From assembly GCA_001803635.1 (NCBI GenBank), contig MHDU01000051.1:1-63888 (forward strand): a stretch of DNA of 63,888 nucleotides, written 5' to 3'. Origin of the DNA: Nitrospirae bacterium GWB2_47_37 (GTDB lineage: Bacteria; Nitrospirota; Thermodesulfovibrionia; Thermodesulfovibrionales; Dissulfurispiraceae). How positions within the stretch are numbered: position 1 is the stretch's first letter; each line of letters begins with the position of its first letter. Shown here piece by piece: positions 9,758 through 62,544 of this stretch. The notes under the pieces were generated by a model. The model searched no databases and had not been told where the DNA came from. It worked only from the letters and a program-made list of their open reading frames with translations. A program made the position numbers and the translations under genes.

Positions 9758-10504
9758 ATGAAAGCATTAAAGACAATCATAATAACCATTATCTCTTTGC
9801 TCTTTCTCGGCATAGTCTATTATTTCATTCTCCCGGACATATCGAAGCTGAAAAAAGAGAATCCGAAAAAAACCTCTTTTATGGAATATCGGGAACGGGA
9901 ATGGCGAGAGAAGGGCAAAAGGATAAAGACCACTCAGATATGGACACCGCTTTCGAATATATCGCCTTACCTCATGAAAGCCGTCCTCATAGCGGAAGAC
10001 GACAAATTTTACAGGCACGAGGGCTTTGATTTCGAGGCGATTCAAAAGGCGCTGGAAAAGGACATCAAAAAGAAAAAATTCAAGTTCGGCGGCAGCACCA
10101 TAAGCCAGCAGCTTGCGAAAAACCTCTACCTGACGCCGTCAAAAAATCCTGTGAGAAAAATAAAAGAAGCGGTCCTCACATGGAGAATAGAGAGCACTCT
10201 TTCAAAAAGGCGCATACTCGAATTATATCTGAATGTCGCGGAATGGGGTGAGGGCATATTCGGCATCGAAGCGGCATCGAGACATTACTACGGCAAGCCG
10301 GCTTCGGCATTAGCCCCTGAAGAGGCGGCGCGCCTCGCATCTGTGCTTCCGAACCCGAGAAAATACAATCCTATCGGAACATCGAAATACGTAGAAACCC
10401 GCTCAAGGATAATCTACGACATAATGGTAAGAAGGGGCATCGTAATACCGGAATATGAGGAGATAGAAAATATACCGGAGACCGAACAGCAAACGCAACA
10501 ATAA
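9758..10504 (+). CDS. mtgA: Monofunctional biosynthetic peptidoglycan transglycosylase
   Basis: The protein has 248 aa, close to the family size. An N-terminal TM helix (residues 4-26) anchors a GT51 domain in the periplasm. The catalytic signature is AVLIAEDDKFYRHEGFD, with the active Glu in the EDDKF motif. GGSTISQQLAKNLYL, then KEAVLTWRIESTLSKRRILELYLN, then EWGEGIFGIEAASRHYYGK follow. There is no transpeptidase domain. It polymerises glycan strands from lipid II. It is a lone plus-strand gene between two minus-strand sensory operons, followed by a structured intergenic element. Confidence 0.96.
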   Translation: MKALKTIIITIISLLFLGIVYYFILPDISKLKKENPKKTSFMEYREREWREKGKRIKTTQIWTPLSNISPYLMKAVLIAEDDKFYRHEGFDFEAIQKALEKDIKKKKFKFGGSTISQQLAKNLYLTPSKNPVRKIKEAVLTWRIESTLSKRRILELYLNVAEWGEGIFGIEAASRHYYGKPASALAPEEAARLASVLPNPRKYNPIGTSKYVETRSRIIYDIMVRRGIVIPEYEEIENIPETEQQTQQ

Positions 10505-10522
10505 TACGTATCAAAAATTTCA

Positions 10523-10748
10523 ACGCAAAGCGCAGGTCTGTTTCAATGACTTTATCGACGGAACTTTTTAATTACATTCTCTTATACTCGTCATCCGCAT
10601 CGGCGGCGTCTATTTGATTAAACATACGGTATCTTTGCTTTGCATAAAAAATAACACTTATAAAGGCGTTGAAACGGATTTGCGCTTTGTGTCATTACGG
10701 ACAAGGATGTCCGGCGAGAATGAGCGGAAATACTGAGCCCTGCCGGAC
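10523..10748 (+). repeat. Structured intergenic element A: long stem, CsrA-motif hairpin and switch-like inverted repeat
   Basis: Bases 10523-10546 pair with 10669-10692 (24 consecutive pairs, extendable by two inward). All four non-Watson-Crick pairs are G-U if the plus strand is transcribed. A 6-bp hairpin at 10698-10713 follows, presenting AGGA in the loop within ACAAGGATGT (10701-10710). GTCCGGC (10709-10715) can instead pair with GCCGGAC (10742-10748), excluding that hairpin. The tail CGAGAATGAGCGGAAAT resembles element B. It could be the 3' end of the mtgA mRNA, a small RNA, or a dispersed DNA repeat. Confidence 0.6.
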
Positions 10749-11719
10749 TATGTGCCTTCCGTATCTTCATTGGTATATTCAGGATAGAGCTTTTTCATGC
10801 AGTCCGGGCATATGCCGTGACTGAACTCCGCTTCGGAATGTTCCGACACGTACGCCTCAACCTGCTTCCAGAAGCCCTTGTCGTCCCTAACCTTTTTGCA
10901 TGAGGAACAGATAGGTATAAGGCCTCGAAGCGTCTTGATCTTTGCAAGGGCTTCAGCCAGTTTCTCATTGCCCTGTTTCAATTCTTCTATATAGTAATGA
11001 CATTTGTCCCTTGCATTTATAACCCCTTCCCTCATCGCGTTAAAAGAATTCACCAGTTCCATTACTTCCCTGCTTCCGGTCTTGATCTCTATCTCCTCCG
11101 GATTTTCCATATCGAATTTCTCCATGTATTTACCGAGCCTGTTCAAGGGATACGTCATGCACCAGCTTACGACTATTCCTATAATGAAACCTATAGCGGC
11201 TATAACAAAGGTTATAACCGCTATATGCCTCCTGACGGAAATGATCCGGGAAAGCATGACATTCTGGTTCATGCCGATATGAATATCGATCTGAGTTCCG
11301 GGGATAACAGGATAGCTGAATTCGATGATAAATTTATCCCCGGCTTTATATTTCGTCACTTTATATTCTCCGGAATCCGAAATCGGATATTCTCCGTGAT
11401 TCTTCAATAATGCCCTTGGAAATCCGCCGTCGAATGAGTGCGCGAATATTTTATTGTTAAAATCTTCTATATAGAGATATTCCATGTCCTTAGTATTGGC
11501 CGCAATATTTTTCAGGTATTCCGAGACGAAAATCACATCGCCGGTAAATATCCTGTCGGCGATATTTTCGGCAACCATCCGGGCGATAAAAAACCCCCTG
11601 TTCTTCATCTCGTTTTGCATGAAATTTTTCATGATCCCGTCCACGATTATGCTTATACTAATCCCTATGCCGAGCGTAACGGCAGATATCAGCAGTATTA
11701 TCTTCACATAAAGTCTCAT
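10748..11719 (-). CDS. Membrane sensor with HAMP-like linker and C-terminal four-Cys module
   Basis: The protein has 323 aa. TM at about 5-28, extracytoplasmic sensor about 30-165, TM about 168-190, HAMP-like region about 190-240, then a coiled coil. The last 60 residues carry ICSSCKKVRDDKGFW and FSHGICPDCMKKLYPEY, four Cys in two CxxC pairs that could bind a metal. No kinase, cyclase or methyl-accepting domain is present. The start overlaps the stop of a PhnD-like gene by 4 bp (ATGA), so the two are probably translated together. The same Cys module recurs in the plus-strand gene at 39762. Confidence 0.8.
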   Translation of the reverse strand: MRLYVKIILLISAVTLGIGISISIIVDGIMKNFMQNEMKNRGFFIARMVAENIADRIFTGDVIFVSEYLKNIAANTKDMEYLYIEDFNNKIFAHSFDGGFPRALLKNHGEYPISDSGEYKVTKYKAGDKFIIEFSYPVIPGTQIDIHIGMNQNVMLSRIISVRRHIAVITFVIAAIGFIIGIVVSWCMTYPLNRLGKYMEKFDMENPEEIEIKTGSREVMELVNSFNAMREGVINARDKCHYYIEELKQGNEKLAEALAKIKTLRGLIPICSSCKKVRDDKGFWKQVEAYVSEHSEAEFSHGICPDCMKKLYPEYTNEDTEGT

Positions 11720-12749: not shown

Positions 12750-12891
12750 GATAAACATTGAGGGCAAAGTATTGGAACGACTTCGGCAGCCTAAGCGTAA
12801 CAGGGATGTTTAAGCGGGCCGACGCAGCTTCGGAGGAAGGCGGGATGCCTTCCGAGAATGAAGCGGAAATGCTTTGTCCTCAATGTTTATT
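12750..12891 (+). repeat. Structured intergenic element B, related to element A
   Basis: Bases 12750-12773 pair with 12868-12891 (24 pairs). The only non-Watson-Crick pairs are G-U in the plus-strand sense. Inside, ACAGGGATGT (12800-12809) forms a small hairpin with a GGGA loop. A stem at 12827-12831/12860-12864 encloses a 7-bp hairpin (12835-12841/12847-12853) with loop GGGAT. The tail CGAGAATGAAGCGGAAAT matches element A except one base. The right arm runs into the stop codon of the DgkA-PAP2 gene on the other strand. No protein-coding gene lies within it. Confidence 0.6.
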
Positions 12892-16574: not shown

Positions 16575-16592
16575 AAAGCCTCCAATATCAGG

Positions 16593-17369
16593 CTATTTCG
16601 CGGTTACAAAATTCTGCATGCCGGTCTTTTTCTGCATGGACACCGCCGACGAACCGGCCTCTTTTTTGGTCTTATAAGCCCCTGCCCTTACCCTGAAGTA
16701 AGGATCGCCTTCGCTCCTCTCGACAATATACGCCTTGATCCCTTTTGATTTTAGAGCGGCCTGCAACTGCTCCGCCCCCTCCTTGCTTGGAAACGCCCCG
16801 AATTGAACGGCATAAAGCCTTTCATGGGAGTTTTTTGAATTTTTTGAAGTTTTGGAAATTTTCTGCGAACCTTTGCTTTTTACGTCCTTTTTAGCCGGCT
16901 TAACGCCTTTAGCCTTAACGTCCGCTTCTGCGGGCTGCGGCTTGTCGGCAGGCTGTTCAGCGCCTGCCTGTTCGGTCTTCACAGGTTCTTTTTCCTTAGG
17001 CGGCTCAGGAGGGAATGGAGGAGGAGCAGGAAATTCCTTTGGAGCTTCCTTGCCTTTATCGGCCTCCGCCGATGAAGGTTTCTGGGCTTTATTTTCCTGA
17101 GGGAATTCGGAAGGAGGCATAATAGGAGGCGGTATTACGGACTTATCCGCAGACGCGGCATCCAGCACCTTCTTTTCCTCTAAAATCGCCGCAGCCTTAT
17201 CCTTCCCGGATATCTCGGCGTCTTTTTCAGACTGGAGAAACTCTCCGCCCTTATAGCCGAAAAAATACCCGAGCCCGAAAGCGACGATGATAATTACAAC
17301 GGCGCCTATCACCACCGTGTTTCGTCCGAGGAGCAAAATCGATGATCTCTCGGGGCTCCTAAATCTCAT
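16593..17369 (-). CDS. SPOR-domain membrane protein
   Basis: The protein has 258 aa. A short cytoplasmic N-terminus is followed by one TM helix (about 19-40), a long Pro/Lys/Glu/Ala-rich linker (60-175) and a C-terminal SPOR domain (about 183-255: YAVQFGAFPSKEGAEQL, YIVERSEGDPYFRVRAGAY). SPOR domains bind denuded septal peptidoglycan, so a cell-division or envelope role is likely. SKTSKNSKNS at the linker end is encoded by a 9-nt tandem repeat. It overlaps queA by 4 bp and ends 18 bp before the phoH start region. Confidence 0.92.
   Translation of the reverse strand: MRFRSPERSSILLLGRNTVVIGAVVIIIVAFGLGYFFGYKGGEFLQSEKDAEISGKDKAAAILEEKKVLDAASADKSVIPPPIMPPSEFPQENKAQKPSSAEADKGKEAPKEFPAPPPFPPEPPKEKEPVKTEQAGAEQPADKPQPAEADVKAKGVKPAKKDVKSKGSQKISKTSKNSKNSHERLYAVQFGAFPSKEGAEQLQAALKSKGIKAYIVERSEGDPYFRVRAGAYKTKKEAGSSAVSMQKKTGMQNFVTAK
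16831..16857. repeat. 9-nt tandem units in the SPOR protein linker
   Basis: TTTTTTGAA occurs twice, followed by GTTTTGGAA. The units keep codon phase and encode SKN-type repeats just before the SPOR domain. Confidence 0.8.
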
Positions 17370-48632: not shown

Positions 48633-49172
48633 TCACCCCTTGATAAGCTTATCTCTTAAAAGCCCTAAATGGCCCTTTATACTACTGTCATACATAGTGC
48701 TGCCTACCTTTATTCTCATGCCGCCGAGCAGAGACGGGTCTATAACAAATTCAAGATCGACATCCCGACCCGTAACCTGCTTTAAAGAACCTGCCAGTTT
48801 CTCTTCATACTCCTTGCTCACATGCACCGGGCTTGTAACTATCGCCTTTGCCCGCTTCTTCATTTCGAGGTATTGAAGCGTTATCGTCTCTATTATCTCG
48901 GGCAGCGCATGGATTACCTTAGAGACTAAAAGATACCCCAGATACTTAACAGTCTTTTCCGACATTTTCAGTTTCCCGCTGATGTAAGTAATGACCTGAC
49001 TGCCTTCTTCATAACTGAAAAGGGGACTTGTCAGGAGGCTCCTGAAGTTCTTGTCCTTTTTCATCAGGCCTGCAACTGCGCTTAACTGCTCAATCCCCTG
49101 CGGGACTTCGCCCAAATCGACGGCGCTTAAAAATTGTTTAGCGTATTTATTTATGCCCTTTACCTTTTTCAA
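48633..49172 (-). CDS. atpH: ATP synthase F1 subunit delta
   Basis: The protein has 179 aa, the typical size. It has [22 protein letters not shown], a helical N-terminal domain, and C-terminal [20 protein letters not shown], then [20 protein letters not shown] and [11 protein letters not shown]. It joins the peripheral b-b' stalk to the top of F1. Confidence 0.96.
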
Positions 49173-49213
49173 TCCTTTAACCTCGCCTTTATCAAGCAGG
49201 AAGCAACCGGTTC

Positions 49214-61238: not shown

Positions 61239-62544
61239 TCTTTTTAAGCCTTACGGCGAAAAAGCCGTCCATATCGTGCCTGTGGGGAAACGTCCTGTAA
61301 AACAAATGCCCGTCCTTGTCCGATGCCTCGAAAGGCCCCATGAGATCATCATCACCTTTTATAATACTAAAATCAGGGTTATCCTGTAAAAAAGAAATAA
61401 CGACGTTTTCCCCTTCTTCCGGCTCCGTGGAACATACTGAATATACCATAACACCGCCTGTTTTAAGCAATCGCGATACGGCATTAAGCATGGATTTCTG
61501 GTTCTCCCCGAACCTGAGAAGGTCTTTAGCGCTGTGCCTGTATTTTACATCGGGATTCCTTCTTATCACGCCTATGGAAGAACACGGCGCATCGAGGAGT
61601 ATCTTATCGAATCGACCCATGTCGAGGGATTTCACATCACCATGAACGATTTTTATTGATTTAAGACCGAGCCTTAAAACATTTTCCTCTAACTGCTTTA
61701 GCCTTTTCTCTTCGGATTCTACTGCTGTGACCTCCCCGCTGTCTTTCATCATTTGCGCTATATGCGTGGTCTTTCCGCCCGGAGCGGCGCAGGCATCGAG
61801 CACCCTTTCTCCGGATTGAGGATTCAGCAGATATGTCACAAGCTGCGCGGCCTCATCCTGAATAAATAATTTATGCGTTAATAGTTCAGACTCTAAAGCC
61901 GCAGGGAATTCTTTTAGCACAATTCCGACAGGCGAGAACTCGGTTGAATGCGCTTCAATTCCCTTTCCGGCAAATTCCTTTAATATTTCTTCTCTATTTT
62001 TTTCGCTCTCTACGCGAAGAACAACCGGCGGTATTTTGTTGTTAGCCTCGGCAAGCGCCAATGTTTCGTCATATCCGAACCTTTTTATCCATTTCTTTAC
62101 GAGCCATTTAGGATGCGATGTGGTAATGGAAATGTAATCAACAGTATTATCTTTTGAAGGGTCTTCTATTTGGTCTTTATTCCTCAAAAAATTTCTCAAT
62201 ACAGCATTCACCAACGACCTTTTGCCTTCGCTGAACCTTTCTAAATTCACAGCCTCATTGACAACCGCCCATTCAGGCGCGCGCATGTATTTAAGCTGAT
62301 AAACGGCGGTTCGCAGATTGTTCAATGTATTCTGCAAAAGGCCGGAAGGCTTTTTCAAAAAATCCTTGAGCATATAATCGAGATAATCCCTGTATCTCAA
62401 AACGCCGTAGACAATCTCCATCAGAAACGCCCTGTCGCGCTTGTCGAGGTCGCCCGACAATTCATCGAGCGCTTCCTTGGGCTTTATGCCTTTGTTGAAG
62501 ATCTTATTGAGGGCTGTTACTGCAATATGGCGGGTAGAGGGCAT
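61231..62544 (-). CDS. rsmB: 16S rRNA m5C967 methyltransferase RsmB
   Basis: The protein has 437 aa. The N-terminal NusB-like domain (1-130) has TALNKIFNKGIKPKEALDEL and FLMEIVYGVLRYRDYLD. The methyltransferase has ERVLDACAAPGGKTTHIAQ, DKILLDAPCSSIGVIRRNPD and YSVCSTEPEEGENV with the two catalytic Cys. It methylates C967 of 16S rRNA with SAM. Confidence 0.97.
   Translation of the reverse strand: MPSTRHIAVTALNKIFNKGIKPKEALDELSGDLDKRDRAFLMEIVYGVLRYRDYLDYMLKDFLKKPSGLLQNTLNNLRTAVYQLKYMRAPEWAVVNEAVNLERFSEGKRSLVNAVLRNFLRNKDQIEDPSKDNTVDYISITTSHPKWLVKKWIKRFGYDETLALAEANNKIPPVVLRVESEKNREEILKEFAGKGIEAHSTEFSPVGIVLKEFPAALESELLTHKLFIQDEAAQLVTYLLNPQSGERVLDACAAPGGKTTHIAQMMKDSGEVTAVESEEKRLKQLEENVLRLGLKSIKIVHGDVKSLDMGRFDKILLDAPCSSIGVIRRNPDVKYRHSAKDLLRFGENQKSMLNAVSRLLKTGGVMVYSVCSTEPEEGENVVISFLQDNPDFSIIKGDDDLMGPFEASDKDGHLFYRTFPHRHDMDGFFAVRLKKNE

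Follow-up and report, generated by a model that had tools for sequence, protein, structure and literature searches.

We recovered two families of short structured repeats, A and B, from the genome of Nitrospirae bacterium GWB2_47_37. Both are probably non-autonomous, mobile-element-like repeats whose plus strand would act as a folded single strand. The site studied here is a chimera of an A copy and a B fragment, and the fragment is probably a relic. A is a previously uncatalogued folded repeat. The window, the whole stretch of DNA analyzed, is contig C51 (63,888 nucleotides) of this 2.47-Mb genome (G000). About 100 A-type and 20 to 40 B-type matches per genome of about 2.2 to 2.6 Mb, with clear strand-specific covariation, is an unusual density.

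The site downstream of mtgA

The site lies between mtgA, which ends at 10504, and a convergent minus-strand gene at 10748 to 11719. The original prediction treated 10523 to 10748 as one element. The stretch instead holds an A copy (about 10513 to 10696) joined to a 3' fragment of B (10697 to about 10748). These are two adjoining repeats, because a separate set of BLAST matches covers 10697 to 10742 alone.

(a) The A copy. This copy was retrieved on the plus strand (10513 to 10696) by BLAST against its own genome and by covariance model R1. It consists of a closing stem and a conserved core. From pairing and folding, the left arm (10523 to 10548) pairs with the right arm (10667 to 10692) in 26 contiguous pairs, 21 Watson-Crick and 5 G-U, with no other exception. 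The stem had been predicted with only G-U exceptions, which holds over all 26 pairs; its predicted length of 24 bp was slightly short. Beyond it come a single A10549·G10666 mismatch and six further pairs. Comparison of copies identified these pairs as a nearly invariant inner closing helix, CTTTAT (10550 to 10555) with ATAAAG (10660 to 10665). The same comparison delimited the core (10556 to 10659), which is conserved, noncoding, and without a consensus helix. The fold of 10500 to 10770 has an energy of -80.7 kcal/mol (z = -4.79). None of 200 shuffles was as good, and the fold is far beyond chance.

(b) The B fragment. BLAST against the same genome and comparison of B copies placed the 3' part of a B copy at 10697 to 10748 on the plus strand. 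It contains hairpin P3, the junction GAGAATGAGCGGAAATA, and the 3' arm of the outer stem P1. It lacks the 5' half. P3 (10698 to 10713) reads CGGAC-AAGGAT-GTCCG and carries the ANGGAN-type hexaloop AAGGAT. This is the CsrA-type hairpin of the original prediction. Its place was given correctly, and it belongs to the truncated B copy and not to A. The usual 3' flank of A (ATTACGGAT) and the sequence GACGGACA of B have the 5-bp ACGGA in common at the junction. A probably became joined to a B copy, or was inserted within one, at this shared ACGGA, leaving the fragment behind.

(c) A second B copy. Comparison of B copies also located a full-length member of subfamily 2 in the window, at 12751 to 12890 on the plus strand. 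Its outer arms (12751 to 12773 and 12868 to 12890) form the outer stem ATAAACATTGAGGGCAAAGTATT/AATGCTTTGTCCTCAATGTTTAT. It is flanked by two minus-strand genes.

Pairing in family A is maintained on one strand

Folding of single copies cannot decide the strand, because plus and minus energies lie close together (35 of 68 copies favor plus); only comparative data do. Over 65 copies, the stem cells contain 225 G-U and 30 A-C combinations, although the copies are related and cell counts overstate their independence. Counted by column, 22 favor G-U and 2 favor A-C (p = 4e-5). In alignment A1, 92.2% of cells are paired and 19 of 27 pairs have changed on both sides, which none of 500 shuffles reached. 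Slid controls for the same alignment were 29 to 50% paired. The covariation in related elements that the original prediction called for is thus present.

Orthologous copies give a stricter test than cell counts. They show 15 pair-keeping and 3 pair-breaking transitions (p = 0.008) and 5 double compensations, with a large share of the changes coming from one locus pair (L132/L148). A strand-asymmetric C-to-T process is insufficient as the sole cause, because A-to-G type changes contribute as well (at one pair, A-T occurs 32 times and G-T 26 times).

The covarying stem and the excess of G-U over A-C strongly support selection that keeps the plus strand of A foldable, as read from aligned copies. 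Both A and B covary in a way that retains standard pairs on one strand, as is expected of a structured RNA family. The proposal of selection for an RNA structure therefore stands as far as plus-strand pairing; sequence alone does not separate RNA from single-stranded DNA. The folded single strand would most likely be RNA, and the long closing stem of A would present the conserved core of about 110 nt.

The core of A does not code for protein. Its frames are mostly closed, and it shows no conserved open frame and no third-position or codon periodicity; a protein-coding core was rejected on these grounds. Further helices in the core had no consensus support. A known RNA family was likewise rejected as the identity of A or B. 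Rfam gave no match for either over the whole window at the gathering score, and a search of nine loci at E <= 1 turned up nothing but tRNAs and one weak match to mir-4079 (E = 0.22).

Copies and spread of family A

BLAST against the own genome retrieved about 22 near-full copies of 10513 to 10692 at 78 to 88% identity. Model R1 was built from 47 diverse A-type sequences, and its best match in this genome is 10526 to 10690 (183.5 bits). Three congeneric genomes, this one among them, contained about 104, 96, and 108 matches, which are approximate counts from rough E-values and at most 150 candidates per genome. Within the family, 12 of 31 genomes had matches, and within the order 13 of 149 did, so members of A also occur in other genera of both. 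Copies measure about 170 to 190 bp, and the distal stem varies in sequence while its pairing is conserved. Like MITEs, A is dispersed, multicopy, and short, with inverted-repeat ends.

A 24-base core pattern had no match in viral contigs, and spread was not found there. A 17-base core pattern had many matches in Nitrospirae contigs and scattered single ones in other phyla. The latter are probably due to chance at such a length.

A could also comprise expressed noncoding RNA genes, or regulatory RNAs, that serve the host and have merely been amplified, the core binding a protein or partner RNA. We regard this as possible and rather unlikely. The core is conserved across genera while the stem varies, and compensatory change is seen at orthologous copies; the preference of A for positions 5' of divergent genes would also suit such RNAs. 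The number of copies, about 100 per genome, and their mostly non-orthologous sites speak against it, as do core-deleted and half copies.

Half copies of A-type repeats occur alongside core-deleted elements in which only the stem is left, as a short hairpin (L041, 1049 to 1109; G000:C46, about 62251 to 62357). For the element at L041, the full element is present at the same site in G001 (L123). A-type members with other stem sequences, here called C, often lie about 20 to 35 bp away from an A copy, head-to-head. Such C(-)/A(+) pairs occur at L010, L117, L116, L159, and other loci, with a conserved AT-rich spacer of about 20 to 35 bp between them. The spacer is possibly a divergent promoter.

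Orientation to genes

By mechanical ORF calling, 50 of 67 A copies have a gene on their 5' side that points away from them (50:17; p = 7e-5), and the 3' side is unbiased. By the same calling, 34 of 50 B copies have their 3' neighbor on the opposite strand. The folding strand of both families is thus mostly antisense to neighboring genes, probably since a plus-strand copy within an mRNA would interfere. The A copy in the window has the minority orientation, 3' of mtgA and on the same strand.

G-T pairs are tolerated in DNA hairpins too. By analogy with attC or REP, the pairing signature might come from single-stranded DNA, with the plus strand folding during transposition or replication and a recombinase or HUH enzyme recognizing it as a DNA hairpin. 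The tolerance of G-T pairs fits this, and so does the antisense orientation of most copies, which leaves neighboring mRNAs carrying the minus strand. A Y1 transposase is missing from the own genome, and pair-keeping change continues at vertically inherited copies; with these points against it, we give this origin tentative standing, on the unlikely side. A and B offer a tractable case for asking in which form, RNA or single-stranded DNA, a bacterial interspersed repeat works.

Orthologous sites

The closest relatives available for comparison were G001 and G002. The orthologous mtgA spacer in G001 contains no A and has a B of the other subfamily. In G002, G034, and G007, mtgA is followed by a different gene with no A-family match. 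As a regulator confined to the mtgA locus, A was rejected on its copy number and its absence from the orthologous spacer. An ordinary transcription terminator or 3'-end stabilizer for mtgA would suit a site directly downstream of that gene and between convergent genes. It would account poorly for the large conserved core within the stem, for the position of most A copies upstream of divergent genes, and for the lack of A at other mtgA loci of the family. This explanation is very unlikely.

The positions of both families largely differ between congeners, and only for few A copies can both flanks be aligned in a congener. Syntenic comparison also found B copies that G001 has and G000 lacks. The few A copies that are vertically inherited show continuing compensation, which suggests that they serve some function in the host and are not purely parasitic. 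Some orthologous sites hold different family members in each species (L117/L141, L118/L163, and L022/L120/L164). This suggests that one member replaced another at these sites or was inserted within it.

Family B

Intact B copies measure about 120 to 150 bp. They fold as a three-way junction with the outer stem P1 and hairpins P2 and P3. The stems covary, with 122 G-U and 17 A-C combinations over 51 near-complete copies. The P3 loop has GGA in all 51, preceded by T, C, A, or G. The ANGGAN hexaloop is in P3 in subfamily 1 and in P2 in subfamily 2.

The outer arms are copy specific. In pairs of B copies with cores about 94.5% identical, the arm is about 51% identical at 13 to 18 bp from the core and about 36% at 19 to 24 bp, against a background of 32%. 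The two arms of one copy pair over a median of 20 bp, compared with 14 bp for arms taken from different copies. Either strong purifying selection acts on the core while the arms drift but must stay paired, or each copy makes or picks up its distal arms when it inserts. Arms that are copy specific yet complementary around such similar cores are unlike the terminal repeats of ordinary MITEs, and this counts against our preferred explanation of A and B as mobile-element-like repeats. They also provide a way to ask how cores that are nearly identical come to be flanked by outer arms that are copy specific yet pair with each other.

The B fragment in the window is most likely a relic and not a regulatory switch for mtgA, because it lacks P2 and its 5' arm. 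The original prediction had proposed a two-state switch in which GTCCGGC (10709 to 10715) pairs with GCCGGAC (10742 to 10748). That pairing can form. It uses an orphaned outer arm that differs between copies and whose proper partner is absent, so a conserved switch is unlikely. From the sequence of the arms, the pairing looks accidental.

CsrA

The genome encodes csrA (PF02599, 85.1 bits; C76:9584-9739), for which the original prediction had asked. The gene directly adjoins fliW, and a flagellin/FlgL-like ORF lies with them (L180, 992 to 1656, minus strand), as in the flagellar arrangement of FliW and CsrA. ANGGAN hexaloops and the consensus RUACARGGAUGU have been described for CsrA/RsmE (PMC7652899).

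B has the conserved GGA in a hairpin loop that is expected of a CsrA target. With these hexaloops and a csrA gene in the genome, B in general is a reasonable candidate for CsrA binding. B resembles the CsrA/RsmE-binding hairpins of CsrB/RsmZ-type RNAs in having an ANGGAN-type hexaloop on a short closing stem (PMC7652899). It differs from these RNAs in having one or two candidate sites per dispersed copy instead of forming one sponge RNA. The consensus of A has no such hairpin. If B copies bind CsrA, mobile repeats may wire many genes to the FliW-CsrA system or may titrate it, and the repeats would be a route for genes into a post-transcriptional regulon. The broader proposal that A and B are amplified, expressed RNA families under host selection, with B copies as dispersed CsrA-binding RNAs, draws on an ANGGAN loop that is kept even where it has moved from P3 to P2; it appears distinctly unlikely from the sequences.

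Control of the window locus by CsrA through the hairpin at 10698 to 10713, with the competing pairing as a two-state switch, is highly improbable. The ANGGAN-type loop, the retention of GGA in 51 of 51 B copies though the stems vary, and the presence of csrA beside fliW are consistent with it. The competing strand is the copy-specific outer arm of a truncated B copy, the G001 spacer carries a different B subfamily and no A, and the site lies between convergent genes with no start-codon region near; all of these argue against such control.

Comparison with known repeat systems

(a) BOX, RUP, and SPRITE. These pneumococcal repeats are short, dispersed, structured, and lineage restricted; they are presumed to be non-autonomous mobile elements, and the terminal repeats of BOX and RUP pair together (PMC3049150). 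A and B are likewise short, dispersed, structured, and lineage restricted. The likeness is by description, with no sequence relation seen. A differs in its core of about 110 nt and its strand-specific G-U evolution, and B differs in its copy-specific outer arms and GGA loop.

(b) ERIC/IRU, MITEs, and stem-loop repeat families. These are intergenic palindromic repeats that can fold once transcribed (PMC2267715). A and B are also intergenic palindromic repeats that could fold if transcribed. Their cores are conserved and their arms variable, the reverse of terminal-repeat recognition, and no parent transposon or target-site duplication was found for them.

(c) REP/REPIN with RAYT transposases. 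These are many-copy hairpin repeats, sometimes in inverted pairs, which recalls the head-to-head C/A pairs. REPs are 20 to 40 bp long (PMC3733652), and A and B measure 120 to 190 bp. A REP/RAYT identity was rejected on the lack of a Y1 transposase in the own genome.

A and B appear to work like non-autonomous, structure-bearing interspersed repeats. We do not claim membership in MITE, REP, or BOX, because the defining features were not found or lie beyond the reach of sequence.

Movement

We infer that A and B are mobile-element-like and move in trans. They would be moved or copied by an enzyme supplied in trans, with a functional likeness to MITE, ERIC, or BOX elements. No autonomous partner or transposase was found, and no recurrent transposase ORF was recognized beside the A copies examined with flanks of about 1 kb. 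The Y1 (RAYT-type) transposase domain PF01797 had no match in G000 and had matches in G001, G002, G007, and G034. The distal arms of both families vary between copies. The outer terminal inverted repeat CATAATCCGTAAT was rejected as a common transposon end; it has just 7 exact copies in the genome and no associated transposase was identified. No target-site duplication was established, since insertion points could not be located exactly at the divergence of the congeners.

Two other species-specific segments were seen. A G000-specific segment of about 680 bp (G000:C46, 45455 to 46133) is absent from G001, and by eye its start resembles a HigB-like toxin-antitoxin reading frame. Compared with 16584 to 16594 of the window, G001:C65 contains a G001-specific insertion of about 100 bp (about 49106 to 49210) with a palindromic AACCTCAACCT/GGTTAAGGTCAAGG pattern. 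It may represent an additional repeat family.
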